This document shows positions 23,360-64,000 of a stretch of 64,000 bases of DNA, one piece after another. How positions within the stretch are numbered: the stretch's first letter is position 1; the number at the start of each line of letters is the position of its first letter. A program made the translations under genes and the position numbers. The stretch is from Saccharopolyspora erythraea NRRL 2338 (GTDB lineage Bacteria > Actinomycetota > Actinomycetes > Mycobacteriales > Pseudonocardiaceae): contig NC_009142.1 in NCBI RefSeq assembly GCF_000062885.1, positions 496,001-560,000 of the forward strand, in the 5' to 3' direction. The notes beneath the pieces were generated by a model, which made no database searches, was not told where the DNA came from, and was given only the letters and a program-made list of their open reading frames with translations.

Positions 23360-23432
23360 GCCGCTGTAGCTCAGTTGGTAGAGCGCCCGCCTTGTAAGCG
23401 GACGGTCAGGGGTTCGAGTCCCCTCAGCGGCT
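23360..23432 (+). tRNA. tRNA-Thr (anticodon TGT)
   Basis: 73 bases fold as a cloverleaf: acceptor GCCGCTG/CAGCGGC, D arm GCTC/GAGC, anticodon loop CTTGTAA (TGT), T arm AGGGG-TTCGAGT-CCCCT, discriminator T. CCA is not encoded (CCG follows). One C-A mismatch falls at the top of the anticodon stem as I fold it. The 3' half from 23391 is part of the 46-bp attachment-site repeat, so the gene stays intact after integration of the element to its right. Confidence 0.95.
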
Positions 23433-23436
23433 CCGA
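23391..23436 (+). repeat. attL: 46-bp attachment-site repeat within tRNA-Thr
   Basis: Begins CTTGTAAGCGG at the anticodon loop and ends CAGCGGCTCCGA just past the tRNA. Identical to 34248-34293; flanking bases differ on both sides. Confidence 0.95.
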
Positions 23437-23499
23437 AACTACCAGCGGAAACGCCGTCGACAGGTCCCTGACCAGGCGCTTTTCGTCTCACTTTCCGTC

Positions 23500-24846
23500 T
23501 CAGTTGACGTCCCAGAAGTACCCGTTGAGCTGATCGGCGATCTCTCGTCGCAGTTCCTCGGTGACGTGCATGTAGCGCTCCTTCATCCGGATCGAGGACC
23601 AGCCCATGTGATCCTGGACGGCCCGGTCTGGAACGCGGAGCAGCATGAGGACCGTCGCCGCAGTGTGGCGCGCGTCGTGCAGCCGAGCATCCCGAACACC
23701 TGCCTCCCCCAAGATGTCCTTCCACTCACCCCAGTCGCGCCGCGGATCGATCGGCCGGCCGTTGGGCTGGGTGAAGACCCAGCCCCCCTCCTGCCACTCG
23801 CTACCGGCGTGCTTGCGCTCCCGCTGCTGCGCCTGCTCGTGGCGCATCAGCAGATCGAAGACCTCATCTGGCAGAACGAAGCTCCGGCGACCAGCCTTCG
23901 ACTTCACGTCGACCTCGACGAGCCCACCACCGTGCCGCTGCGGGCAACTGCTCGCGTGCCTGGTGCAGTTCGGCGGGCACGGACGGTGGTGGCCCTTCTC
24001 GTCGCGAATGCAGCTCTTGCGGTTGCGATGCTGGGTGCAGTTGTCCGGGCACGCCACCCGATGAAGTCGTGCTCCGCAGGCGTGCGGGTCGTCGCATCCG
24101 TGTTGCCAAGCCTGCCGCTGCAATGCCTGCCGTACGCGGTAAAGCCGGTTCCCGCGGTCGAGGCGGTCCCACTTGAACCCCAGGGCTTCGCCTTGGCGAC
24201 AACCGAGAGCCAAGGCGACGACGTATCGCACGCCGTTGCGCCGCTTGAGCGCGGCCGTGATGATGCTCTTGGCTTCCTGCGGCGTGAACGGCTCCACTTC
24301 CTTTTCCTCGACGCGCGGCGCTTTCACGAAGGCGATGGGGTTCCCGGTGATGCGCTGCCGCCGGAAGTATTCGTTGAATGCCGTTTTGGCAGTCCGGTGC
24401 ACCTGATGTGCGGTCCCTGCACTGGCGCCGGCGGCCTGCATCCTGGCGTAGAACCGCTCGAAGTGCTCCGGCTCGATGCGGTCCATCCGGTGCGCGCCGA
24501 TACCGGGGATCAGGTGCTTGTAGACCGCCGTTCGGTAGCCCTGAAGCGTCTTGTACCGAACGGAGTGCACCGCGATGTTCTCGACCCAGTGAGTCAGCCA
24601 CTTCTCGACTGTCCACGCGCGACCAGGCTTCCGCGCGTTGCCGCTATCCCGGTCACGTTCGAGCTTGCGGACCTTATCGATGACCTCGGTCTCGGTCTTG
24701 GCTTGGACGTGGCGACGGTCGGGCTTGCCGTCGTCGCGGACGCCCATCGTGACGCGCCCGTGCCAGTAGCCGTCCGTCTCGCTGTAGTAGATGCTGCTGG
24801 CGCCGTTGGGGGCTCGGGTGCCTTCTGGGCGGCGTTTGCGGGGCAT
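23500..24846 (-). CDS. int: Tyrosine recombinase/integrase with Cys-rich insertion
   Basis: 448 aa. SAM-like core-binding domain ~78-170. Catalytic residues: R217 (LGCRQGEALG), Lys near 315 (DVKSKAGRR), H390/R393 (LHDARHTAAT), H413 (QDHMGWSS) and Tyr425 (MKERYMHV). Between the first Arg and the Lys (residues ~250-305) is an insert with eight cysteines and several His (HGCDDPHACG, RVACPDNCTQH, RPCPPNCTRH, SSCPQRHGGG), which looks like one or two metal-binding clusters. The gene ends 64 bases from attL, the usual arrangement for tRNA-integrating elements. It catalyses site-specific integration and excision between the 46-bp att sites. Confidence 0.93.
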   Translation of the reverse strand: MPRKRRPEGTRAPNGASSIYYSETDGYWHGRVTMGVRDDGKPDRRHVQAKTETEVIDKVRKLERDRDSGNARKPGRAWTVEKWLTHWVENIAVHSVRYKTLQGYRTAVYKHLIPGIGAHRMDRIEPEHFERFYARMQAAGASAGTAHQVHRTAKTAFNEYFRRQRITGNPIAFVKAPRVEEKEVEPFTPQEAKSIITAALKRRNGVRYVVALALGCRQGEALGFKWDRLDRGNRLYRVRQALQRQAWQHGCDDPHACGARLHRVACPDNCTQHRNRKSCIRDEKGHHRPCPPNCTRHASSCPQRHGGGLVEVDVKSKAGRRSFVLPDEVFDLLMRHEQAQQRERKHAGSEWQEGGWVFTQPNGRPIDPRRDWGEWKDILGEAGVRDARLHDARHTAATVLMLLRVPDRAVQDHMGWSSIRMKERYMHVTEELRREIADQLNGYFWDVN

Positions 24847-24950
24847 GGATGGTTCCTCTCGGTGGTCGGTTTCGTGGCTGGTTGTGGGCGCGCGGGGTCG
24901 CCGCGCGAGAGCGCGGTGGGGGGTTAGATCCGGAGTTAGATCGGCGGAGG

Positions 24951-24970
24951 CGAGTTAGATATCTAACTCG
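24951..24970. repeat. Perfect 20-bp palindrome
   Basis: Half site CGAGTTAGAT followed by its exact complement ATCTAACTCG. Flanked by further GTTAGAT copies at about 24923, 24935 and 24974, so it sits inside a small direct-repeat array ~105 bases before the int start. Confidence 0.9.
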
Positions 24971-25047
24971 GGGGTTAGATCGTTCTGCTGCTGGGCTGAC
25001 CTGCGGAAAGTTAGGCAAGTTAGCCGAGTTACGGGGTTAGCGCCCAG

Positions 25048-25075
25048 GTTGGGAGCAGCCTGGGAGGCTCCCAAC
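25048..25075. repeat. Inverted repeat GTTGGGAGC (copy 1)
   Basis: Arms GTTGGGAGC (25048-25056) and GCTCCCAAC (25067-25075), 10-base spacer. The same 9-mer forms a second inverted repeat 3.7 kb away at 28789-28815 in the opposite arm order. Confidence 0.85.
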
Positions 25076-25234
25076 TCGGGGTGAGCGAGGGTGCCAGGTG
25101 GCTAACTCGTCTAACTCGTCTAGCGCTTCGCCCGGGTCGCCGAGCGGGCCGCGTTCGGTGGCGTGGTGGGACGCTGGCCCCTGTCCCGCTAGGCGCTAGC
25201 TCGCTGGTCGGTGCCGGTCCGGGCCGCTAGCGCT

Positions 25235-25272
25235 CCCGCTAGGTCTAGCGGGTGTGGGCGCTAGGTCTAGCG
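25235..25272. repeat. Two adjacent CGCTAG-GT-CTAGCG palindromes
   Basis: CCCGCTAG-GT-CTAGCGGG (25235-25252) and CGCTAG-GT-CTAGCG (25259-25272), with a further GCGCTAGC/CGCTAGCG nearby. They overlap the stop of the small membrane protein gene. Confidence 0.8.
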
Positions 25273-25523
25273 GTGCGGAGCCGGGGTGTGGGTACGGCGG
25301 TGCCGGCGCGGTCGAGGGCGAGCATGAGGCCGCGGAGTGCGGCCAGTGCGGCGAAGCCACCGAGGGCGAGGGTGCGCACCATCCCGAGGGTCACCGCGAG
25401 CGCAGCGATGAGGATCACGGGCAGCACCGCCCGCCACAGCAGGACGGCTACCGCGGCGGCGGTGAGCAGGGCGAGGGCGGCGAGCACGGCCAGCACGCGG
25501 CCGGTGATGTCCAGCGGGGTCAT
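25245..25523 (-). CDS. Small hydrophobic membrane protein of the element
   Basis: 92 aa. ATG at 25523 preceded by CGGGAG at seven-base spacing. Two long hydrophobic stretches: VLAVLAALALLTAAAVAVLLW and AVLPVILIAALAVTLGMV; then GGFAALAALRGLMLAL and a basic Pro-rich tail (TPRLRTARPSAHTR). No recognised family. Small membrane proteins of this kind occur in integrative elements of actinobacteria (spread or maintenance functions), but nothing in the sequence proves that here. Lies between int and the HTH gene in the same orientation, surrounded by repeats. Confidence 0.6.
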   Translation of the reverse strand: MTPLDITGRVLAVLAALALLTAAAVAVLLWRAVLPVILIAALAVTLGMVRTLALGGFAALAALRGLMLALDRAGTAVPTPRLRTARPSAHTR

Positions 25524-25811
25524 CGTGGGTCTCCCGGGTGTGGTTGTGGGCGGTCGGTTCGAACGGGGTGGGTGGACGGTGCGGACTGCCCGGCACCGCC
25601 GCGCAGAGGTGTTTCCGGGCGGGGTGTTCACCCGGTCCACCTGTCCACCTGGGCGGGGTTGGGCCTGGTGGCGGGTGGTGGAGTGAGTGGGTGGGCGCGT
25701 GGGTGGGAATCCACCCGGAATCGCGGCCTCCACCCCTGATCCACCGGGCATCCACTTGCCCACTTGTGGGGCGTTCTCGCAGGCCGTGCCCAGTGGGCCG
25801 GGCCAGTGGAT

Positions 25812-25833
25812 GGCCAGTGGATATCCACTGGCC
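25812..25833. repeat. Perfect 22-bp palindrome
   Basis: Half site GGCCAGTGGAT followed by its exact complement. Further CCAGTGG or CACTGGCC copies lie at about 25788, 25802, 25845 and 25856. Confidence 0.9.
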
Positions 25834-25897
25834 CCTGCCGGGCTCACTGGCCCGTTCACTGGCCTCGCGCGGCCCGGCGGTACGGGGTGAGGGGGTA

Positions 25898-26080
25898 GCC
25901 GTCCCAGCCGTCCCAAGCGTCCCAGTGCTGGTCAGGCTGGGACGGCTTGCAGGCGTGGGACGGCTCGTGCCGTCCCAGCAGTGCGCGCCGCTGGGGTCGG
26001 TGGGACGGCTCGTGCCGTCCCAGGGCGTGTTGCCGTCCCGCGCTGACCTGCGGTGGGACGGCTGGGACGGCTGGGACGGC
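25898..26080. repeat. Iteron-like array of the 9-mer TGGGACGGC in both orientations
   Basis: About a dozen copies in 183 bases. There are inverted copies near 25898 and 25907, direct copies at 25938 and 25956, and two identical stem-loops (TGGGACGGC-TCGT-GCCGTCCCA) at 25956-25977 and 26001-26022. A variant sits at 26032, and three perfect head-to-tail copies at 26054, 26063 and 26072. Confidence 0.9.
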
Positions 26081-26130
26081 ACCCCCTCCCACCCCGATAT
26101 TGGGCCGACTGGGCGACGTGACGGCGGTGG

Positions 26131-26547
26131 TCATGCCGCGCCCCGGGCCAGGCGGTCGATGTAGGCGGTGAGCGCTTCGACGGGGACGCGGCGGGCGTGG
26201 CCGATGCGTACCGAGTCGACGTCGCCGGACTTGATGAGCTTGAACATCGTGGTGCGGCCGACCGACAACCGGCGGGCGGCCTGCTCGACGGTCAGCAGCA
26301 GCCGCGTTGCGTCCCCGGACTCCCGGGGCCGGGGGAGGGAAGCGGGGGCCGGTGTCGACAACCCCGGATTCCGGGGGTGTCGGGCGGTGTGCGCGGGGCG
26401 TTCCCTCGTTCCCTGTTGTGGGGTTTGCGCAGGTCGAGCCGAGGGAGTGGCGGAGGGAACGGGGTAGGGAGAATTCCCTGCCTCCCCGGCGGTTCCCTGC
26501 CGGGTTCCCTGTGCCGTGACGGCGGTCGGGCGGTGGGCGGTGTGCAT
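26131..26547 (-). CDS. HTH (excisionase/MerR-like) DNA-binding protein
   Basis: About 138 aa. ATG at 26547 with CAGGAG at good spacing; a longer frame upstream has no support. The N-terminal ~75 residues are low-complexity (Pro/Thr/Ala). The C-terminal domain LLLTVEQAARRLSVGRTTMF..IKSGDVDSVRIGHARRVPVEAL is the classic excisionase-family winged HTH (HTH_17). Probably the recombination directionality factor or a regulator of the element. Its upstream region holds a 26-bp palindrome likely to be its operator. Confidence 0.8.
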   Translation of the reverse strand: MHTAHRPTAVTAQGTRQGTAGEAGNSPYPVPSATPSARPAQTPQQGTRERPAHTARHPRNPGLSTPAPASLPRPRESGDATRLLLTVEQAARRLSVGRTTMFKLIKSGDVDSVRIGHARRVPVEALTAYIDRLARGAA

Positions 26548-26615
26548 GGCGGCTCCTGTGGGGACGAAGTTGACGAAATTACGAACTTTGGCGCTGACCT
26601 GGGGTTTCGTGGGGA

Positions 26616-26641
26616 GCAAAGTTCGTAGCTACGAACTTTGC
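26616..26641. repeat. Perfect 26-bp palindrome before the HTH gene
   Basis: Half site GCAAAGTTCGTAG followed by its exact complement. Extra half-copies ACGAACTTTG at 26581 and GTTCGTA near 26670 and 26690. Located ~70 bases before the start of the HTH gene and abutting the stop of the ATPase gene, as expected for an operator. Confidence 0.9.
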
Positions 26642-26643
26642 TT

Positions 26644-28110
26644 TCAGGGTTTGCCCTGGTCAGGGGCATTGTTCGTAAGTTCGTGGTGTTCGTAGGCAAT
26701 GAAGATCTCGGTGGCGCGGCCTCCCTTCCGGCCCTCCGGGCGGCGCTGGGTCTTGGCGATGGTGTGGTCGGCGATGAGCTGGTCCAGCAGCGCTTCGATG
26801 CGGGTCTTCCTGGCGTTGCCCTGGAAGAAGCCTGCGGTGATCTCGGTGCGGGTGCGTCCCTGTGGCCCGGCCTCGCGGATGTAGGCGGCGAGCTGGGCCA
26901 GCGCCGGGTCGGCTTGGCGGAACACCGCGCGGGCGGAGTCGACGGCGTAGCGGATGAACGCCGCCGCGGCGACCAGGTGCGCGGGCTGGATGGTGGGGGT
27001 GCCGTCGAGGGCGGCGTGGATGCCGGCCACCCGGAGGCAGTTGGGTGCGGCGCGGGAGAGGAACTGCTCGATCGGTCCATCTTCGGTGCTGAAGCCGCCG
27101 AACTCGACGTAGAGCCGCCGCCACAGGTAGGCGGCCTCGTCGCTGAAGCCGAGCTGTCCGAGCGTGGCGCCCTGGTCCAGGCGTGCCCGCAGGTCGACCG
27201 CCAGGCGCTCGATCAGCGCCGGATCGGCCCCCGTGCCTGCCGGGAGGAACTGGGTCTGGGCGACGAAGACCGGGAGAAACCGGTTGTAGGTGCCTCCGGC
27301 CATGTCGGAGTGGCTGACCTTGGCGTGGAACTCGCCGGGGGTGATGTGGGTCAGGATGCCGACGTGGGCGTCGCGCACGATGCGGGCGGTGACGCCGAGG
27401 GTGGACAGGTTGCCGCCCTCCCACGCCGCGCGCAGCGTCGCCGAGAGGGTGTTGCCCTCGCGGCGCATCCGCGCCATCACCGAGGCCCACTCCGGTTCGA
27501 AGGCCAGCAGTCGCCGATCCCCGGAAGGCAGCAGTGCGCGGGGGCGCGGCTTGCCTTTGCCGGGCTCGGTCCCGTCCCCCTCGTCTTCGTCGGCGAACGC
27601 CTGGGTCAGGCCCTCGCCGGAGGTCAGGCCGCTGTGGATGTTGGAGGCCACGAACCCGGAATCGGCGGCCGTCAGGAGGCGTTTGGCGGCCGACCAGCCC
27701 GCGCCCTTGCGGCCGATGCCGGTCCGGCCGATGACCATCGGCCACACCAGCAGCGGGTGCCGGTCGTCGCCGACCCGAATGTGTGGGCGTCCACCGAGGT
27801 GGACCCCGGTTCCGGCCAGCAGGGAGGCCAGGATGTTGGTGGGGTCGGCCTCGCTGGTCGGCTGCACCTGGCGGACCAGGTCGCCGAGGAAGGTCTCGAA
27901 CATCGCCTCATCGCGGGCGGGGAGTTCGGCGCGGGCGCTGGCGATCTGAGCGAGCGCTTGGCGTTCGGTTTCCGGGTCCGGCGGCAACATCGGTCCCGTC
28001 CCTGTGCCGGGAGCCTCCGGGCTCGCTGTGGGCTGGTCGGAGTCGGAGACCAGGCGCAGCCGCCGAGGCTGTTCCGCTGGGGTGGCTGCGGGGTGTTCGG
28101 GCTTGCTCAT
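26644..28110 (-). CDS. DUF3987-like replication-associated ATPase
   Basis: 488 aa. Recognisable pieces of the DUF3987/YfjI group are NILASLLAGTGVHLGGRPHIRVG, VWPMVIGRTGIGRKGAGWSAAKRLL (both in part), SGLTSGEGL, RLLAFEPEWASVMARMRREGNTLSATLRAAWEGG (part), HVGILTHITPGEFHAKV and NRFLPVFVAQTQFLP. The P-loop-like segment GRTGIGRKG lacks the usual GK[ST]. The C-terminus (TEITAGFFQGNARKTRIEALLDQLIADHTI, in parts) resembles a winged helix. In phages and mobile elements this family is linked to replication as a helicase/primase-like protein; I infer the same here. It is the only replication candidate in the element. Confidence 0.75.
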   Translation of the reverse strand: MSKPEHPAATPAEQPRRLRLVSDSDQPTASPEAPGTGTGPMLPPDPETERQALAQIASARAELPARDEAMFETFLGDLVRQVQPTSEADPTNILASLLAGTGVHLGGRPHIRVGDDRHPLLVWPMVIGRTGIGRKGAGWSAAKRLLTAADSGFVASNIHSGLTSGEGLTQAFADEDEGDGTEPGKGKPRPRALLPSGDRRLLAFEPEWASVMARMRREGNTLSATLRAAWEGGNLSTLGVTARIVRDAHVGILTHITPGEFHAKVSHSDMAGGTYNRFLPVFVAQTQFLPAGTGADPALIERLAVDLRARLDQGATLGQLGFSDEAAYLWRRLYVEFGGFSTEDGPIEQFLSRAAPNCLRVAGIHAALDGTPTIQPAHLVAAAAFIRYAVDSARAVFRQADPALAQLAAYIREAGPQGRTRTEITAGFFQGNARKTRIEALLDQLIADHTIAKTQRRPEGRKGGRATEIFIAYEHHELTNNAPDQGKP

Positions 28111-28468
28111 GGGCTACCGCTCCGATGGGTCGTGAGTGCTGTTCAGAGGGGTTGGGAACCCGGGTCCGCACCCGGGTTCACGGCTTCTGCGCCGCCTTCT
28201 CCGGCGGGTTCTCGCTGCCGTTCTCGGTGATCTTGGTGAGGTTCTTCCCATGCAGGTGAGAAGCGGTGAGAACCCGGAGGAATCGACCTCGATTCGTGCA
28301 GGCCAACCAGGTGGATCGAGGCCGATCGAGTCCCGGTCGATCGACCCCCGATCCCCGCTCGGCTGGGTCGTTGCCGGGTCTCCGGGCGACTACTGGCGGT
28401 GACGCTGCGGCGGTGCTCGGGTCGGGTTCACTGAGGCTGGAACAGTGGGGGGCGGGAATCCGGGTCTT

Positions 28469-28667
28469 AAACCCGCAAACCCGCAAAAGGGGGTGTGACC
28501 TGGTGTTTTGTGGTGCGGGTTTGGTGCGGGTTTGCGGGTTTGGTGGGCTGGGTTTGGCGGGTTTGCGGGTTTGGTGACGGCTGTGGCGGGTTTGGCTCCC
28601 CCTCCTGTCCCGGCTTCTTTTTCCTGGTCATTGGGGTTGGTTGCGGGGTTTGCGGGTTTGCGGGTTT
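28469..28667. repeat. Iteron array of GCGGGTTT
   Basis: At least eight exact copies on the plus strand (28515, 28526, 28534, 28557, 28565, 28586, 28652, 28660) and two inverted copies (28469, 28477), often head to tail at 8-base period, plus variants such as GCGGGGTTT. Telomere-like G/T strand bias. Confidence 0.9.
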
Positions 28668-28788
28668 GCTACGGCGCTTGGCGATGTGCCGGGCGGCGTG
28701 CCCGTGGTGACGGGCAGGGCGCCGGTCACGCCGCGTAGTGCGAACGGTCTGCCTCGGGTCCGCAGCCCGCGTTCGCTGGTGGTTTCGG

Positions 28789-28815
28789 GCTCCCAACCCG
28801 CGCGGAGTTGGGAGC
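28789..28815. repeat. Inverted repeat GTTGGGAGC (copy 2)
   Basis: GCTCCCAAC (28789-28797), nine-base spacer, GTTGGGAGC (28807-28815). Same 9-mer as at 25048-25075. Confidence 0.85.
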
Positions 28816-29080
28816 ACCCCCGTCGAACGCGGCGGGTCCCGGGGCGGCTGGTCTGGAGGGGTGGGAGACCCGGCCCGGTGGCGGCGGTTCAAGGCCCACA
28901 CGGGGTGGGTGGCGGGATGGCGCCACCGGGCCGGGGTGGTCGGGATCGGCGGGGAGGACCGGCGCCGGTAGTGGCTTCTGGCCCCACACGGGGTGGGGTG
29001 GCGGTTGCGCTACCGGGCCGGGGTTTGAGCTGTTCGCGAACCTGTCGGGACGCTTCCGACAGGGCAAAACACGCCCTGTG

Positions 29081-29193
29081 GCTGCGACCAGCAGGAACAG
29101 CCGTTTCCGCTGTTCCCGGCGGGTGTGCCTGCGACCAGCGGAAACAGTGTGTTTGCGCTGTTCCCTGGGGGTGTGGCCGCGACCAGCGGGAAC
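29081..29193. repeat. Three ~47-bp direct repeats with core GCGACCAGCGGGAAC
   Basis: Units begin at 29081, 29128 and 29176 with GSCTGCGACCAGC-GGAAC variants, each followed in the first two by a CGCTGTTCCC block and GGGTGTG. The core GCGAC..GGAAC/GTTCC is itself partly palindromic. The array ends seven bases before the stop codon of the 29201 gene. Confidence 0.85.
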
Positions 29194-29200
29194 GCCCGGG

Positions 29201-29536
29201 CTAGTTCGGCCAGATCGCGTCCGGCTCGAGCTCCACCGGGTGCACCGCCGGGGTGTCCCGTCCCGGTGCCGGCGGGCGGGTGACCGCCCGGACCGCGTCG
29301 GCCCGGGCCTGAGCCAGGGCGTAGCGGCGCCGGTCGAACGTCGGCCCACCGGAGGCGGCCAGCACCGCCAGCCCGTTCTCCAGCCGCTCGATCGCCTTGC
29401 GGGGCGTCTTGCGGTGGACCAGGGCCACGAACCGAGCCAGGTCGTAGACCTCGGCGTCGCGCAGCTGCGCGTCGGTCAGCGGGCAGGCGTAGAGCACGGT
29501 CACCACGCCATGCACGGTCACCTTGGGCACGGTCAT
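29201..29536 (-). CDS. Element protein of unknown function
   Basis: 111 aa (MTVPKVTVHGVVTVLYACPL...). Its ATG shares one base with the stop of the upstream HTH gene (TGATG), so it is translationally coupled. Composition is ordinary and helical (AQLRDAEVYDLARFVALVHRK, AIERLENGLAVLA, RRYALAQARADAVRAV), ending DAIWPN. No motif recognised. Fourth gene of the minus-strand set 30589-29201. Confidence 0.65.
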   Translation of the reverse strand: MTVPKVTVHGVVTVLYACPLTDAQLRDAEVYDLARFVALVHRKTPRKAIERLENGLAVLAASGGPTFDRRRYALAQARADAVRAVTRPPAPGRDTPAVHPVELEPDAIWPN

Positions 29537-29913
29537 CACGCGGCCACCCCTTCCAGCTCGATGCGCTCGGCGCCGGACAGGCCGCCGATGAGCGGGTCCT
29601 TCGGGCTGGAGACCACCTGTGGCGTCGGGGCGCCGCGCTCGATGTCGGCGCGGGTGACCACCGGGTGGTTGCGGGACCAAGCGCCCGCGATGCCCAGCAT
29701 GCCCGGGGTGGTGCCGTAGACCTCGGCCCAGAGCTGCTGGTAGGTCGACGAGACCACCCGCACGCCGCGTTCCCACTCGCCGAGCAGCCCGAGCAGGGTG
29801 CCCGGCGAGTGCGCCCGGATGCCCCGGGACCGGGCCGCTTCGGCCAGGTGCTGGCAGGCGGTCTTCTGCGACCAGCCCCGGGCTGTGCGGTACTGCCGCA
29901 GTCGCACGCTCAT
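29536..29913 (-). CDS. XRE-like helix-turn-helix protein
   Basis: 125 aa. N-terminal region RLRQYRTARGWSQKTACQHLAEAARSRG..SPGTLLGLLGEWERGVRVVS.YQQLWAEVYGTTPGMLGI reads as a lambda-repressor-type HTH with the WERG recognition-helix neighbourhood. Extended form similar to the XRE domain of the 31488 protein (YTEWEQGRVLP). The C-terminal part (PTPQVVSSPKDPLIGGLSGAERIELEG) is short and linker-like. Likely an element regulator. Starts five bases after the stop of the next gene upstream. Confidence 0.7.
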   Translation of the reverse strand: MSVRLRQYRTARGWSQKTACQHLAEAARSRGIRAHSPGTLLGLLGEWERGVRVVSSTYQQLWAEVYGTTPGMLGIAGAWSRNHPVVTRADIERGAPTPQVVSSPKDPLIGGLSGAERIELEGVAA

Positions 29914-29918
29914 GTGCC

Positions 29919-30326
29919 TCACGCCCTCGTCAGTGCGCGGCGCGGTGCGGGCACCCCGGGGCGGCCGTAGAGCTCGGCGACCCGGCGGCGGATCATCATC
30001 AGCAGCGCGTAGTCCCCGCTGCCCGGCTTGATGTCCTCGATCTCTTCGCGGGCGAGGCAGATGCGGTTCGAGCCCTCGTGCAGGAAGGTCTCCAGCACCA
30101 TCTCGTGTGCGTACTGGTCGTTGCCGAGTTCGCGCTCGTCCAGCAACATCCCGCCGTTGACGGCGATCCAGAACACGGCCTCGATGTCTTCCAGCGACAC
30201 CGGCACGCTCATGCTCACCTGCATCACGATCGGGGTGTCGTTGTCCTCGCGGTGGGTGGGGATGAACGTCGCGTGGTGGTCGCCGACCATGCCCTGTGCC
30301 CGCTCGGTGTGCAGTCGCATCGTCAC
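29919..30326 (-). CDS. Element protein of unknown function (acidic, ~135 aa)
   Basis: GTG start at 30326 overlaps the stop of the upstream HTH gene as GTGA. Sequence features: VMQVSMSVPVSLEDIEAVFWIAVNGGM, then MVLETFLHEGSNRICLAREEIEDIKPGSGDYALLMMIRRRVAEL (parts). No family recognised; no membrane segment or metal motif. Its tight packing between two HTH genes suggests a shared regulatory or replication-control operon. Confidence 0.65.
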   Translation of the reverse strand: MTMRLHTERAQGMVGDHHATFIPTHREDNDTPIVMQVSMSVPVSLEDIEAVFWIAVNGGMLLDERELGNDQYAHEMVLETFLHEGSNRICLAREEIEDIKPGSGDYALLMMIRRRVAELYGRPGVPAPRRALTRA

Positions 30327-30589
30327 GCCACCTCCCCCGCGGTCTCGTCACGGTCGTCGGCGGCGGCCGACTCGGTGCCGGTCACGAACGCCTCGTAGGC
30401 GGCCTGGCCGCACTGCTCCAAGTAGATGTTCAGGGCGGAGCCCTCGATTCGGAGGGTGCCCTTGCCGGTACCGAGCTTGAGGGCGTCGAGCTTCCCGGAC
30501 TCGATCGCCCGGTAGATGGTGGCCTTGGAGATGTTCAGCAGGTCGGCGACTGCCTTGACCTTGAACACCTGGTTATCCTCGAAGCGCAT
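30323..30589 (-). CDS. Small HTH (excisionase/BldC-like) protein
   Basis: 88 aa. MRFEDNQVFKVKAVADLLNISKATIYRAIESGKLDALKLG is a HTH_17/excisionase-type winged helix; GTLRIEGSALNIYL completes the wing. ATG at 30589 with GGAGAAACG upstream. First gene of the leftward operon, divergent from the GntR gene at 30779. Either the second excisionase-like factor of the element or its transcription regulator. Confidence 0.75.
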   Translation of the reverse strand: MRFEDNQVFKVKAVADLLNISKATIYRAIESGKLDALKLGTGKGTLRIEGSALNIYLEQCGQAAYEAFVTGTESAAADDRDETAGEVA

Positions 30590-30778
30590 CGTTTCTCCAT
30601 CGGTTTCGATGTGCGCCCTGGTCGGTGTTGCAGCACTGACCAGGGCTTTTTCTTGTCCGGCTGAGGCGGTTGAGGCATCTGCAACAACCGGAACGAGAGC
30701 AACAGTAGCGACGAGAGTTAAGTGAGTCAAGTCTCTGTCGTGACTTCCTTGAGTTGACGATCGCGTACCCTTGCTGAC
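30590..30778. promoter_or_regulatory. Divergent promoter region of the element
   Basis: 189 bases between the leftward HTH operon and the rightward GntR gene. Contains AAGTGAGTCAAGTCTC and CCTTGAGTTGACGATC with repeated (T)GAGTTGAC/TGAGTCAA elements, a likely GntR/KorA-type operator. The GntR gene starts within ~20 bases of the last repeat and may be leaderless. Confidence 0.45.
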
Positions 30779-31141
30779 GTGGCAAAACGCGAGGTAGAGA
30801 ACTCTCAGGCGCCCTACCGTCAGGTCGCCGACGCCATCCGCGCGAGCATCACGAACGGGACGTACGGGCCGGGGGAGAAGCTCCCTACCGGTAAGGACTT
30901 GGCTGACGAGTACGGCGTGGCTATCAACACCGCCCGCAGCGCGCTGGAAATCCTGCGGCAGGAGGGGCTGATCGCTGTCCGCCATGGCCAGGGGTCGTAC
31001 GTCCTCAGCCAGCCGGAGTCCGGCGGAGCCGATGCCGAGAACGCTGACGTGCCCAGCGTCGCGGCGGTGCATCAACAGCTTGCGGAGATCAACCGGCGAC
31101 TCGCGGCGATCGAGGAACGCCTGAACGAACTTGCCCGCTGA
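30779..31141 (+). CDS. GntR-family winged-helix regulator (short, with C-terminal coiled coil)
   Basis: 120 aa. APYRQVADAIRASITNGTYGPGEKLPTGKDLADEYGV..NTARSALEILRQEGLIAVRHGQGSYVL is a complete GntR winged helix. There is no ligand-binding domain; the end (VHQQLAEINRRLAAIEERLNELAR) is a heptad coiled coil for dimerisation. This form is common in actinobacterial integrative elements as the KorSA-type repressor of transfer/replication genes. GTG start at 30779. Divergent from the HTH operon, which it probably represses. Confidence 0.82.
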   Translation: MAKREVENSQAPYRQVADAIRASITNGTYGPGEKLPTGKDLADEYGVAINTARSALEILRQEGLIAVRHGQGSYVLSQPESGGADAENADVPSVAAVHQQLAEINRRLAAIEERLNELAR

Positions 31142-31152
31142 CCTGCCAGCAG

Positions 31153-31332
31153 CTACCCGGCAACTGCACCGAAGAACGTCTTGAGCGCGCCGAACGTGGT
31201 CTTCACGAACTCCGCGGATTCGGTCGGCTGCTGCACGACCATAACCACGACCACGATCAGCACAGCCCAACCGAACAGCTTCGGGAGCACCCCGCCGCCG
31301 GTCTTCATCATCGGAAACGACTGCTTGGCCAT
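31153..31332 (-). CDS. 59-aa single-pass membrane protein
   Basis: Too short for most gene finders. ATG at 31332 follows GAGGGAGAAGGTC, an excellent ribosome-binding site. Sequence: MAKQSFPMMKTGGGVLPKLF, then a hydrophobic helix WAVLIVVVVMVV, then an amphipathic Phe-rich tail (EFVKTTFGALKTFFGAV). Stop TAG. N-terminal charge pattern suggests N-in topology. No family known to me. It lies between the GntR and XRE genes on the opposite strand, converging on GntR. Confidence 0.65.
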   Translation of the reverse strand: MAKQSFPMMKTGGGVLPKLFGWAVLIVVVVMVVQQPTESAEFVKTTFGALKTFFGAVAG

Positions 31333-31487
31333 GACCTTCTCCCTCGTTCAGAGTGTTGACTGCTTTCGCTGTCATGCCTCAAGAATCGATCGACTTTGCG
31401 ATGATGGGGAGATGAGTCGCGGGTGAGTCGGAGGTGAGTCGTTCGACTCACCTGGCTCTGACCAGGGGGAACGCCAGGGGAGGGACC

Positions 31488-32612
31488 GTGCCCGTAGAGG
31501 AACCCGAAGCAACGCCTTTGAAGCGCGCACGTCTCGCGAGTGGCATGTCGCAGATGGAGACCCGCACCAAGCTCCGCGAAGTCCGACGTCGTCGCGGCAA
31601 GATGCCCCCGAAAGACGTGAGCCTGAAGCGGATGTACACGGAGTGGGAGCAGGGTCGCGTCCTTCCGACCGACTGGCGCGACGAACTATGCGAGGTCTTC
31701 GCGCTCCCGCCAGCGGCTCTAGGCTTCGTGGACACGGCGCCGCCGCCGTCTGCATTGGACATTCCATCGGCGCTGGAGATCACCAGGATCGACGCCGAGA
31801 TCGTCGAAATGTTGGAGCAGCAGACCGACCACTACCGTCTCATGGACCGGAAGGTCGGCGCGGCGATCATCCCGCAGACCGTCGCACATGTTGAGCACAT
31901 GGAGAAGCTGTTACGCACTGCCCTGCCTGGAAAGCACTCCCACCTGGCCGCGGTCGCACTTGCGGAGGGCGCAGCCTTGGCGGGCTGGCAGGCGCTCGAT
32001 GCAGGTGACGTCACGAAGGCGTGGAACCTGCACGACGTCGCGAAAGCTGCTGCCCGGCAAGGTGAAGACCCTGCTGTGTTCGCTCACGTGACGGCTCAGC
32101 AGGCGTACGCGCTTCTCGACGCCGGCCGGGCCACCGAAGCAGTCGAGCTAGTCCAGTACGCACACACCCCCGAAATCGCGCGGCGTGTCCCGGCTCGGCT
32201 TCGTGCCTGGCTTGCAGCTGCGGAGGCGGAGTTTCTCGCTGCCGCTGGCCAGCACCGCCAGGCGCTCACGATGCTCGATCAGGCGGCCGACGCCCTACCC
32301 GAAGGCGACACCGATCCGGAACTGCCTTTCCTGATGCTGAACAGCACGCACCTCGCCCGTTGGCGTGGTCACTGCCTCGCCAGGCTAGGCGCTGACGAGG
32401 CAGTCGATGACCTTACGAGAGCCCTGGAGGGTAGTCAGGTCTTGTCCTCGAAGCGGGCGGAGTCGGGCCTTCGGGTCGATCTCGCCTTAGCGCTGCGGAA
32501 GCGTGGCGACATCGAAGGTTCGAAAACGCATGCGCAGAGAGCCGCGGAACTGGCGGGCAGTACGGGATCAGCACGACAGCGCGCACGGATCGCGAAGCTG
32601 CTCGTGGACTAG
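31488..32612 (+). CDS. XRE regulator with TPR-like C-terminal region
   Basis: About 374 aa. GTG at 31488 after AGGGAGGGA. N-terminal XRE HTH (LKRARLASGMSQMETRTKLREV, then YTEWEQGRVLPTDWRDELCEVFALPPAALGF, in parts). The rest is helical with TPR-like pairs (ALAEGAALAGWQALDAGDVTKAWNLHDVAKAAARQ.., AYALLDAGRATEAVELVQYA, AEFLAAAGQHRQALTMLDQAADALP). Such XRE-TPR proteins act as peptide- or signal-responsive regulators in actinobacteria. It converges with the Nudix gene, one base between the stops. Confidence 0.78.
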   Translation: MPVEEPEATPLKRARLASGMSQMETRTKLREVRRRRGKMPPKDVSLKRMYTEWEQGRVLPTDWRDELCEVFALPPAALGFVDTAPPPSALDIPSALEITRIDAEIVEMLEQQTDHYRLMDRKVGAAIIPQTVAHVEHMEKLLRTALPGKHSHLAAVALAEGAALAGWQALDAGDVTKAWNLHDVAKAAARQGEDPAVFAHVTAQQAYALLDAGRATEAVELVQYAHTPEIARRVPARLRAWLAAAEAEFLAAAGQHRQALTMLDQAADALPEGDTDPELPFLMLNSTHLARWRGHCLARLGADEAVDDLTRALEGSQVLSSKRAESGLRVDLALALRKRGDIEGSKTHAQRAAELAGSTGSARQRARIAKLLVD

Positions 32613-32613
32613 C

Positions 32614-33156
32614 TCACCTGCCGAGAGCCAAGTAGTGGAGAAGGCCGACGAGGGTGCCGGAGTTCTTCACCTTTCCCTCGCGGATCAGGTTGGGCACGTT
32701 GGCCACGGGGACCCACTCGAACTTGCCTTCGTTGACCTCCGTGGCGTCTCCGACCAGCTCAGCGCCCCGGCCGAGAAAGACGTGGTGAGGATTGCGCAGC
32801 ATGCCTACTGCTGGTTCGAATGTGACTAGTGGTTCGATCTTTCGAGGCTTATAGCCGGTTTCCTCGATCAGCTCCCGCAACGCTGTCTCCTGCGGGTCTT
32901 CCCCCTCGTCGATGATCCCTCCGGGGAGCTCCCAGTTCCAGATATCCGGCGCGAACCGGTGCCGCCATGCCATGAGCACATGCTCTTCTGCGTCGTCGAG
33001 AAGCACGGTCATCGCAGGAGGTGGAAACCACACAGTGTGGTGCTCGAAGCGCTCTCCTGAAGGTTGCGAGATATCGGCCAAGCCGACGCGTACCCACGCG
33101 CTCTCGTACACAGGACGCTCACCATGCACGGTCCACGTGCCCTCTTGGTCAGCCAC
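32614..33156 (-). CDS. Nudix hydrolase (ADP-ribose/nucleoside-diphosphate-sugar type)
   Basis: 180 aa. Complete Nudix box at about residues 78-100 (GGIIDEGEDPQ..RELIEETGY), giving the Mg-binding REXXEE helix. N-terminal beta strands with HHTVWFPPPAMTVLLDD and MAWRHRF, and a C-terminal LREGKVKNSGTLVGLLHY-like helix, resemble ADP-ribose pyrophosphatases. Cargo gene of the element, adjacent to the XRE-TPR regulator. Its substrate cannot be told from sequence. Confidence 0.85.
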   Translation of the reverse strand: MADQEGTWTVHGERPVYESAWVRVGLADISQPSGERFEHHTVWFPPPAMTVLLDDAEEHVLMAWRHRFAPDIWNWELPGGIIDEGEDPQETALRELIEETGYKPRKIEPLVTFEPAVGMLRNPHHVFLGRGAELVGDATEVNEGKFEWVPVANVPNLIREGKVKNSGTLVGLLHYLALGR

Positions 33157-33214
33157 TGATCAGCCCTTCTCTCGGACTATCGAAAGTTCGTTCTCTTGGT
33201 GTTCCCCGGTGCAG

Positions 33215-33493
33215 CTAGCGAGAACGGTAGGCGTCTCGCCTATGAGCGACGGTCACCACGGTGACAAGGATCTGCTCGTCGTTGATCGAGTACAGGGCTC
33301 GGTATTCGCCGCGACGGGTGCTGTGCAGTTCCTCGAATGGCGCATCGAGGCGCTTACCCAGACGGTGCGGGTTGTCAGCGACCGGCCCCGTGAGGTGGTC
33401 GTGCATCGCCATGGCCGCAGCCAAGGGGAGGCGGTTCATCTGGCGCCTGGCGGCAGCCGTGTAGCTGATCGTGTAGCTGCCTCGTGGGCTCAT
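33215..33493 (-). CDS. RelE/ParE-family toxin
   Basis: 92 aa. YTISYTAAARRQMNRLP, then DHLTGPVADNPHRLGKRLDAPFEELHSTRRGEYRALYSINDEQILVTVVTVAHRRDAYR (key parts). The R-G-x-Y-R-A-L-Y and I-x-V-x-x-V-x-H-R-x-x-x-Y-R pattern is the RelE fold with its catalytic basic/aromatic residues. RelE toxins cleave mRNA on the ribosome. Its ATG overlaps the antitoxin stop by four bases, the usual order for this type. Confidence 0.88.
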   Translation of the reverse strand: MSPRGSYTISYTAAARRQMNRLPLAAAMAMHDHLTGPVADNPHRLGKRLDAPFEELHSTRRGEYRALYSINDEQILVTVVTVAHRRDAYRSR

Positions 33494-33786
33494 TCGTTGG
33501 CCGCGCGTGCTCGGAGGTCCTCTGCCATCTGATCAGCGGAAACCGTTCGGCCGGCTGCCATGTCGGCGAGTCCTTCGCGGAGGTCCCGTACGAGCTCGGA
33601 GTCGGAGAGCACTTCGATCGTTTCTCGCAGCCGATCGATCTCGCCCGACGGCACGACGTCGGCAACGTGCTCGCCATGCGCGATGACGGGCACGCTCTCG
33701 CCACGTTCGGCACGCTGGACGGCTTCGTTCCATGACGCCAGGCCATCGGCGGACACGCTCACTGGCTGCTCGCTCATGGTGTTCAT
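33490..33786 (-). CDS. Antitoxin, Phd/RelB-like
   Basis: 98 aa. PVSVSADGLASWNEAVQRAERGESVPVIAHGEHVADVVPSGEIDRL (in parts) matches a Phd/YefM-type N-terminal dimer fold (the G-E-x-V-x-V-I-x-x-x-x-x-x-A-x-V element). The helical acidic C-terminus (VRDLREGLADMAAGRTVSADQMAEDLRARA) neutralises the toxin. Likely autorepresses the pair. Start ATG 33786 or, less likely, 33777. Helps keep the element in the chromosome. Confidence 0.85.
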   Translation of the reverse strand: MNTMSEQPVSVSADGLASWNEAVQRAERGESVPVIAHGEHVADVVPSGEIDRLRETIEVLSDSELVRDLREGLADMAAGRTVSADQMAEDLRARAANE

Positions 33787-34247
33787 TGTGCGGCATCCTC
33801 TCTTCGGTCGACCAGCGCCGAAGGCTGGAACAGGGTTTGTCAGGGAGTGCCCTCTAGGAGCTAGACCGCTGGTGAGGCCGTGAACGCCGCTCTAGCGGCC
33901 CCTCTAGATCTAGAGGCCGTCACCTCTAGATCTAGAGGGCTCCGTAGCGGCCCTCAGGCCGCCTCTGACGAACCGCGTGCGTCCTGCCGAGGCCTGGTGG
34001 GGCGAGTAGCGCCACAGCCGGGAGATCGGCGCTCAAGAGGCCCTGAGATCGCCACAGACGCCGCGAAGGCGTCCACCCGGTACCAGGAGGCCGGGCAACC
34101 GGGTTGTGGGCCGCGCCGCGCTCCGCTTCGTCGGCTCAGTTCCCGGCTCAGTTCGCCCCCGTACAACCACCCAACCACTGTTCCAGCAATTGCGCTGACC
34201 AGCAGTTTTGTACGACTTTGTGCTGATGTGAACCACAGACCGGAGAT
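33787..34247. other. Non-coding right end of the element
   Basis: 461 bases without a credible gene. Contains the toxin-antitoxin promoter, the twin CCTCTAGATCTAGAGG palindromes, CCGCTCTAGCGG nearby, and then plain sequence to attR. Probably holds integrase arm sites or the antitoxin operator. Confidence 0.6.
33901..33938. repeat. Twin perfect 16-bp palindromes
   Basis: CCTCTAGATCTAGAGG at 33901-33916 and again at 33923-33938, centres 22 bases apart (two helical turns). Related CTCTAG motifs at 33851 and 33890. Reminiscent of the CTAG palindromes at 25235-25272 near the other end. Confidence 0.9.
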
Positions 34248-34293
34248 CTTGTAAGCGGACGGTCAGGGGTTCGAGTCCCCTCAGCGGCTCCGA
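34248..34293 (+). repeat. attR: 46-bp repeat of the tRNA-Thr 3' end
   Basis: Identical to 23391-23436. It carries only the anticodon loop to 3' end of the tRNA, with no 5' half, so it is not a functional tRNA gene. Confidence 0.95.
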
Positions 34294-63473: not shown

Positions 63474-63565
63474 GCCCCTCAGGGTAACTTCTGGCACGCA
63501 CGCCGCCGGGAGATCTCGCCGCCCAGCTGACTGGGAGATCGGCGACGGGTACGGTGGAAGGCGGT

Positions 63566-63656
63566 GAGCACGGGAGTCCGCGGATGCCGGACTGAGAGGG
63601 GGCGCCAAGGCCCCGACCGTCGAACCTGATCCGGGTCATGCCGGCGCAGGGAGCGT
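63566..63656 (+). promoter_or_regulatory. TPP riboswitch (THI element)
   Basis: Shows the conserved parts in order: GGGAGTCC, GGACTGAGAGGG (the CTGAGA core), a GGGGCGCC-AAG-GCCCC helix (approximately), GACCGTCGAACCTGATCCGGGTCATGCCGGCG (core ACCTGATCCGGGT) and the closing AGGGAG. The AGGGAG also acts as the thiO Shine-Dalgarno, so ligand binding would hide it. Confidence 0.92.
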
Positions 63657-63660
63657 GGAG

Positions 63661-64000
63661 TTGTCTGAACTGTCTGGTTTGACGGCCGAGCACGTCGTCG
63701 TTGTCGGCGGCGGGGTCATCGGTCTGTCCGTCGCTTGGTGCGCGGCGCGCGCCGGTCACCGCGTGACGGTGGTCGACCCGGCGCCCGCGTCCGGCGCGTC
63801 GCACGTGGCGGGCGGGATGCTCGCACCGGTCGCCGAGGCGTGGCCCGGCGAGGAGGAGCTGCTCGAGCTGGGGGCCGCGTCGTTGCACCGCTGGCCCGAC
63901 TTCGCGGACCGGCTCGCCCGCGACGCGGGGATGCCGTCCGGTCTGCGGCCGGAGGGCACGCTCGTCGTGGGGGTCGACAGCGCCGACCGCACCGAGCTCG
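63661..64000 (+). CDS. thiO: Glycine oxidase ThiO, N-terminal part (cut by window end)
   Basis: 113 residues visible. FAD-binding Rossmann motif VVVVGGGVIGLSVAWCAARAG (in part) then VTVVDPAPASGASHVAGGMLAPVAEA, the D-amino-acid-oxidase-type signature of ThiO. Oxidises glycine to dehydroglycine for thiazole synthesis. Start probably TTG 63661, seven bases after AGGGAG of the riboswitch; GTG 63655 or TTG 63679 are other options. Confidence 0.92.
   Translation, partial: MSELSGLTAEHVVVVGGGVIGLSVAWCAARAGHRVTVVDPAPASGASHVAGGMLAPVAEAWPGEEELLELGAASLHRWPDFADRLARDAGMPSGLRPEGTLVVGVDSADRTEL

Follow-up and report, generated by a model that had tools for sequence, protein, structure and literature searches.

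Genetic organization of the element

The window (the whole stretch of 64,000 nucleotides analyzed here) contains an integrative element of 10.9 kb, at positions 23391-34293. Its size was deduced from a repeat search, in which an exact 46-bp direct repeat was found both at the 3' end of a tRNA-Thr gene (attL-type end at 23391-23436, tRNA gene at 23360-23434) and at 34248-34293 (attR-type end). The element encodes a tyrosine integrase on the minus strand (23500-24846; PF00589, 2e-17). Pfam scans also assigned to it an HTH_17 excisionase-like ORF (26131-26619, minus strand, domain at about 26152-26298), a DUF3987 protein presumed to be a replication protein (26644-28110, minus strand) and a GntR-family regulator (30779-31141, plus strand), as well as a second HTH_17 protein, a TPR-like protein below the cut-off, a NUDIX protein and ParE. 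A small ORF on the minus strand (25245-25523) is hydrophobic by look and has no Pfam family; its 3' end overlaps a repeat array, hereafter CTAG array 1. At the other end of the element, a ParE-like toxin gene with a probable antitoxin ORF (33215-33786) adjoins CTAG array 2 and attR.

No TraB or Prim-Pol match was found in the element by tblastn with the proteins of one AICE and by Pfam scans of 20 window reading frames. The element also lacks repAM, the only DUF3631 gene of the genome being located at 7.84 Mb, and the array described below therefore has no repAM gene beside it. An AICE carries Int, Rep and FtsK/TraB between its att sites; this element has an Int, a Rep-like DUF3987 protein and no TraB match. 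With its own integration genes, no transfer apparatus found and helper-like cis sites, it has instead the profile of a putative satellite that mimics the sites of presumed helpers.

A dense array of inverted repeats downstream of xis

Between the excisionase-like gene and the small ORF lies a dense array of the 9-mer TGGGACGGC (25898-26080). It comprises 10 exact copies, four on the minus and six on the plus strand, and one with a single mismatch at 26032; the count of about twelve given in an earlier note on this DNA is reached with a further copy near 25916, found by eye, that has two mismatches. In whole-window shuffles, the chance expectation for TGGGACGGC with at most one mismatch is 47 per 64 kb, which corresponds to about 0.13 in a stretch of 183 bp. 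The pair of identical stem-loops with a 4-base loop and the head-to-tail run of three copies reported in that note are both present as described, as 24-nt hairpins at 25955-25978 and 26000-26023 and as a triple at 26054-26080. The halves of the array form an 86-nt inverted repeat (78% complementary), and each half contains a GGTCAG/CTGACC core that the note did not mention and that is kept in relatives.

In 20 resamples from a third-order Markov model, no 8-mer reached five copies per 250 bp. Besides the TGGGACGGC cluster, which has the most copies (11), the actual sequence of the window contains nine clusters of an 8-mer with at least five copies per 250 bp, seven of them confined to one strand and coding-like and two corresponding to further arrays of the same element. 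A coding origin of the array, already dismissed in the earlier note, was rejected, the array being located between xis and the small ORF and its repeats keeping a two-strand DNA layout. Even in RepAM loci, where a reading frame can extend into the array, the repeats hold this layout on both strands. Outside the element, window positions 48001-50000 have a G+C content of 79-83% and 7/8-mer repeats on one strand, and are probably a repetitive coding region.

The array accompanies repAM genes in other elements

A scan for the TGGGACGGC hairpin pair returned at least 118 loci in public genomes and 15 in viral contigs. Of these 133 loci, 114 had the hairpin pair alone and were left out, and 19 with at least three copies in 300 bp were kept; among the matches listed, all 19 come from genomes and none from viral contigs. 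The motif search in related elements that the earlier note had proposed thus placed the array 3' of repAM genes: among the matches listed, 18 of the 19 array loci have its start 21-126 bp beyond the RepAM domain, L020 being the exception.

DUF3631 is encoded in 112 of 297 genomes of the host family. We retained 69 of 70 RepAM loci (L148, cut by a contig end, was left out), 40 of which were hand-picked from the listed matches. At least six copies of one unit are found just 3' of the gene in 60 of the 69 loci, and by that cut the remaining nine have none. The unit is of the GTCCC, GTACC, GCTACC, GCGACC, GTAAC or GCAAC type and follows the RepAM tree, with 14 changes against a shuffled mean of 35.4 and a value as low in none of 200 shuffles.

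Regions located 3' of rep or traB-like genes were gathered in a library of 160 entries (77 TraB, 69 RepAM, 11 DUF3987 and three of a third putative Rep family), later extended to 164 with the Rep and traB-like regions of an AICE at 1.25 Mb in the host genome and two TraB entries. For most entries, gene position was the sole criterion; an array was already known when the three third-Rep entries, TraB L252 and L253 and the 1.25-Mb pair were selected. The 11 DUF3987 entries were drawn from elements with TraB or Prim-Pol. The shuffles used as null preserve non-overlapping dinucleotide blocks only and, as a cut based on 40 shuffles passes seven of 92 control segments, a stricter cut was set at 39. 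The TGGGACGGC array scored 224 to RepAM_L144, the entry of a co-resident AICE, with all other classes at 29 or less and a 40-shuffle maximum of 37. Aligned to a consensus built from 29 RepAM arrays, it matches all 64 conserved unit columns and 31 of 37 aligned conserved non-unit columns; with the array of that AICE it shares 171 of 206 positions (83% identity). The array thus shares its unit, spacing and core with the RepAM module of pMEA300-type AICEs (DUF3631/PF12307; Ghinet et al. 2011, PMC3218068), whereas its element has DUF3987 in place of repAM and carries the array downstream of xis.

In the passages of PMC3218068 that deal with RepAM, the protein is credited with the autonomous replication of pMEA300, and those passages describe no such array. 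By analogy, the position of the array resembles that of iterons at the 3' end of a rep gene; in Streptomyces plasmid pWTY27, according to the section on its replication locus, RepA binds an iteron array of that locus (PMC3583192). Since the array is regularly found with repAM in other elements, at the position expected for Rep iterons, the replication origin is the option of the earlier note that gains support. Binding by a protein of the element itself, as that note supposed, is probably wrong, because RepAM is missing here and the sole DUF3631 gene belongs to another element.

The array could nevertheless be a site for the HTH_17 Xis, GntR or DUF3987 protein of the element, with a role in excision, regulation or replication of the element. 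The array immediately follows xis, and a xis relative is present in the same locus in seven of the 19 scan loci (among the matches listed) and in the RepAM AICE of the same genome. However, xis relatives are also present in elements without the TGGGACGGC unit, the unit follows RepAM in RepAM loci, and DUF3987 has a different array of its own, so that we regard this explanation as very unlikely. The general look of clustered inverted repeats would suit a partition centromere or a clt belonging to the element. The regular neighbor is, however, a Rep gene, and no partition family (ParA/ParB) was among the Pfam matches of the window ORFs scanned, which speaks against a centromere such as parS. As for clt, TGGGACGGC was never the best unit 3' of traB in 69 traB-like loci, where other units are used, and its best TraB-class score was 29; the clt-like identity put forward in the earlier note is therefore wrong. 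Taken together, centromere and clt have almost no probability in our estimate.

Co-resident elements in the host genome

Three TGGGACGGC-type arrays are present in the 8.21-Mb host genome, at 277 kb, at 522 kb (in the window) and at 7.84 Mb. The last follows the single DUF3631 gene and belongs to an AICE-like element located beside a tRNA-Phe gene, with DUF3631 (RepAM), Prim-Pol, a traB-like gene, xis and int. The 277-kb array sits in a sister of the window element that has a 93% identical DUF3987 and its own att repeats at a tRNA-Ser gene. Both small elements carry the TGGGACGGC-type array without RepAM, and they account for the two DUF3987 matches of the genome. Xis and Int of the window element share 51% and 60-62% identity, respectively, with those of the RepAM AICE.

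A second AICE-like element (1245945-1266413, hereafter the 1.25-Mb element) is bounded by a 44-bp repeat. Its traB-like gene belongs to another lineage (28% identity) and is followed by a GAGTTAG array. A divergent TraB-like query against the host genome retrieved the traB-like genes at 7.83 Mb and 1.25 Mb and two weak matches in frames of 1404-1412 aa, which we take to be type VII ATPases. The pump genes of the two AICEs are called TraB-like here on weak family hits only. The 7.83-Mb protein scored 16.9 bits to FtsK/SpoIIIE (cut-off 24) and 32 bits to the NCBIfam plasmid TraB family (cut-off 800), and matched FtsK in the PDB with an E value of 0.0012; the 1.25-Mb protein has no NCBIfam match and 28-30% identity to other TraB-like proteins. 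The TraB-like protein of locus L255 passes the Pfam cut-off.

Candidate transfer sites and other arrays in the element

All 30 of the closest traB-like loci examined have 7-10 CTAG within 500 bp past the gene. Among 39 more divergent loci, hand-picked from the listed matches, 15 have at least six CTAG, and the rest have CTACCC, CGCTACC, CAGGGA or other units, or no clear array. Seven array sites were found in the window element besides the TGGGACGGC array. CTAG array 1 (25186-25273) is similar to the array that follows the traB-like gene in the co-resident 7.83-Mb AICE, and CTAG array 2 (33854-33935), near attR, has CTAG spacings equal to those of array 1; both have the layout seen 3' of traB-like genes. 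This layout occurs at six places in the 8.2 Mb, in four integrative elements: after the traB-like gene of the 7.83-Mb AICE, twice in each small element and once in the 1.25-Mb element, the reversed pattern occurring nowhere. The GAGTTAG array (24933-25117) is similar to the one that follows the traB-like gene in the 1.25-Mb AICE, also co-resident, with a direct alignment score of 108.5 against 66 for the best of 200 shuffles. In the library comparison on the same strand, the CTAG arrays scored 72 and 63 to TraB entries and the GAGTTAG array 50 to the TraB entry of the 1.25-Mb AICE. Judged by sequence, the CTAG and GAGTTAG arrays are clt-like candidate TraB sites.

Of the four other sites, the one where the DUF3987 gene has its 3' end, an ACGAACTT array (26580-26694, score 154), is presumed to be the own origin of the element. 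A GTTCCC/AGGGAAC array (26400-26510) resembles arrays 3' of the traB-like genes L339, L261 and L254 (score 47, 40-shuffle maximum 34), and a GGGTTTG array (28469-28668) resembles the array 3' of genes of the third putative Rep family at L274, L278 and L285 (score 50, 40-shuffle maximum 39). The GGCCAGTG/GGCCAGTGGAT array (25780-25870) resembles the array 3' of the divergent traB-like gene L255 and is borderline, with a score of 39 on the same strand and 55 on the other. Every window array exceeded the maximum of 40 shuffles, and only scores above 39 also exceeded all 92 control segments.

A core resembling GCAGGTCA or TGACCWGC is found between the units in arrays of unrelated Rep and TraB families (window arrays within 24933-28668, L008, L250-L264 and L274). 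The pattern CnGGTCA or TGACCnG occurs in 63 of 69 RepAM, 11 of 11 DUF3987, 41 of 77 TraB and two of three third-Rep entries, these counts having no control set. Two further stretches of the element are repeat-rich. Positions 28990-29200 (CTGTTCC repeats), picked by eye and left out of the counts, scored 41 to a TraB site against a null of 28, and positions 28180-28360 (GGTTCTC/TCGATC) scored 28, equal to the null, and have no class assigned.

The window element thus carries look-alikes of the sites of both co-resident pumps, and of the Rep array of one of the two AICEs; of the 1.25-Mb AICE, the TraB-type site was found in the element and the Rep array was not. In the 1.25-Mb element, a CTAG-type site close to the far end (1263606-1263649, locus L325) is present in addition to the element's own GAGTTAG-type site, so that sites for a foreign pump may occur in AICEs as well. 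The idea of the earlier note that an element without a pump could be mobilized is upheld as a hypothesis by the clt-like arrays, with the difference that the CTAG and GAGTTAG arrays, and not TGGGACGGC, would be the sites involved.

Constraint on the arrays between sister elements

Between the window element and its sister, the TGGGACGGC array shows no substitution in 72 unit positions and two in 156 positions overall, against 112 in 1,198 at the other aligned positions of 25500-26900 (Fisher 1e-4). About 45 bp, corresponding to one hairpin module, is missing from the array of the sister, as in some RepAM loci. Substitutions amount to 5/131 in the own ACGAACTT array, 5/88 in CTAG array 1, 8/91 in the GGCCAGTG array, 14/121 in the GTTCCC array, 24/212 in the GGGTTTG array and 107/1,411 in the DUF3987 gene. 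Constraint is therefore clear only for the RepAM-type TGGGACGGC array, the low divergence of which could instead come from gene conversion. The GTTCCC, GGGTTTG and GGCCAGTG arrays diverge about as much as the DUF3987 gene, and a search of the host genome for a gene of the third Rep family gave no match, a result that proves nothing by itself; these three arrays may be relics.

That all arrays are functionless leftovers of modular recombination with AICEs would be in line with the rate of change of these three and with the kinship of Xis and Int to those of the RepAM AICE (51% and 60-62% identity, as above). This explanation appears quite unlikely to us, however, as the TGGGACGGC array is the most conserved stretch compared between the sisters, and is placed after xis and not between rep and xis, and as eight bounded elements of seven genomes have collections of such arrays. 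Alternatively, the array could be a decoy that titrates (handcuffs) the RepAM of a rival AICE, as in iteron incompatibility, the TraB-type arrays titrating TraB in the same way. The many binding units, their full match to those of the co-resident Rep and the several different arrays per element would suit a decoy. Such a role needs the binding units alone, yet core and spacing are largely kept (the 31 of 37 conserved non-unit columns); when either strand was allowed, the best scores of the TGGGACGGC, GTTCCC and both CTAG arrays were in the AICE-like orientation, GGCCAGTG being reversed. Hitchhiking, moreover, would be an obvious benefit for an element in which no pump was found. Titration is therefore an unlikely explanation.

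Array collections in small DUF3987 elements

Homologs of DUF3987 are present in 61 of 390 family genomes. We examined 22 DUF3987 elements, the two of the host genome and 20 hand-picked by similarity and extent of contig (Prim-Pol regions were also picked). Half of the 22 have a Prim-Pol and/or TraB match and half have neither, two of the latter being cut by contig ends. An att pair was found in eight of the 11 elements without such a match, with lengths of 8.4-12.7 kb, and in none of the 10 elements tested that have such a match (within the fetched stretch; L251 was left out). The three elements without a TraB or Prim-Pol match that remain outside the eight are L248, L249 and L250; contig ends truncate L248 and L249, and the search for an att pair gave no result in L248 and L250. 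Locus L249 (G111:C11) contains degenerate head-to-tail copies of DUF3987, xis and the array with N stretches, an apparent pile-up of elements.

The eight bounded elements, from seven genomes, carry 38 arrays. Eight of these lie at the DUF3987 gene of their element, with two in L263 and no detected one in L246, and the other 30 are extra. Among the extra arrays, 25 pass the shuffles, 23 exceed all 92 controls and 22 do both; two of the 23 are of the DUF3987 class, and the GGGTTTG array of L006 (score 43) ties its own shuffle maximum. The CGCTACC arrays of L262 and L263 were considered as RepAM-type and rejected, with library scores of 112 and 91 to TraB_L338 against 40 and 41 to RepAM. Library scoring assigned no class to the GGGGACA, GCCTCCC, AGTGAGC and CGGGTTA arrays of other elements. 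The presence of a matching helper is clear in the host genome and appears mixed in other hosts; in G175, where L263 has a CTAG array, neither of the two candidates scored is a CTAG-type TraB. Pseudonocardiaceae may harbor a class of small satellites of double-stranded-DNA conjugation with a "key ring" of several clt-like sites and several origin arrays of unrelated AICE lineages, each recognized by the TraB or Rep of a different helper, so that any AICE that is present could replicate and pump the element, a proposal for which we see the chances as evenly balanced.

A satellite model and its relation to known systems

The explanation that we favor, and consider fairly probable from the sequence comparisons, is that the TGGGACGGC array is a RepAM-type origin (Rep-binding iterons) on a satellite element that lacks RepAM and is replicated and transferred by helpers. 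The element has a presumed Rep (DUF3987) with its own array, so that a second origin is not obviously needed. Upon activation of the 7.84-Mb RepAM AICE, its RepAM would act in trans on the TGGGACGGC array, and the excised small element would be replicated through it. The TraB-like pumps of the two co-resident AICEs would recognize the CTAG and GAGTTAG arrays, as borrowed sites, and deliver the element to a new cell, where its own Int would insert it at tRNA-Thr. Binding of RepAM, replication from the array, binding of TraB and transfer in trans are all steps that we infer.

In pWTY27, TraA binds a clt that extends over the 3' end of traA (16 bp) and 159 bp adjacent to it, and pIJ101, pJV1 and pSVH1 are also treated in the same paper (PMC3583192). 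Like the clt at traA in that account, the CTAG and GAGTTAG arrays match repeats located directly 3' of traB-like genes. Unlike the Streptomyces clt loci covered there, they are putative TraB sites in an element where no traB was found, and the TGGGACGGC array is of another class. Another parallel is given by non-conjugative Staphylococcus plasmids, which, in the passages cited from PMC8136818, carry oriT mimics, sometimes two or three and mostly of different subtype. Here too, an element in which no transfer apparatus was found has look-alikes of the cis sites of presumed helpers. The staphylococcal case, as presented in those passages, concerns the relaxase oriT of one plasmid family, whereas the window element is integrative and combines candidate sites of several TraB-like lineages with arrays of unrelated Rep origins.

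Defective AICEs, as outlined in the relevant sections of PMC9513070 and PMC3218068, are likewise AICE-like elements thought to be mobilizable by helpers. The DAICEs described in that part of PMC9513070 have traB, in contrast to the window element, and the sections cited from both papers do not describe cis sites used in trans. The same part of PMC9513070 asks whether AICEs can hijack the TraB of another element, and points out that pSAM2 has no described clt motif. A 2017 review of integrative mobilizable elements covers, in the portion cited, double-stranded-DNA transfer by TraB and no pirating element (PMC5704250). In the parts of the open-licence literature that we covered, no description of satellites with mimics of an AICE origin or clt was found. 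The arrays provide concrete candidate sites for RepAM and several TraB-like lineages, making the question of TraB hijacking directly testable. If the satellite model is true, it would explain the persistence of integrative elements without a pump, and the arrays would serve as a sequence signature by which such elements can be recognized. Mimicry of transfer sites would then no longer be confined to oriT and relaxases, but would include double-stranded-DNA pumps, and origins of replication as well.

NUDIX genes are located in the window element (32614-33156) and beside RepAM AICE genes in locus L008 (618-1094); with a nudix gene listed among exclusion systems in the section cited from PMC9513070, the NUDIX genes of the small element and of the RepAM AICE may by analogy be exclusion genes. 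A TPP riboswitch is located at window positions 63560-63669 (Rfam RF00059, 60.3 bits).
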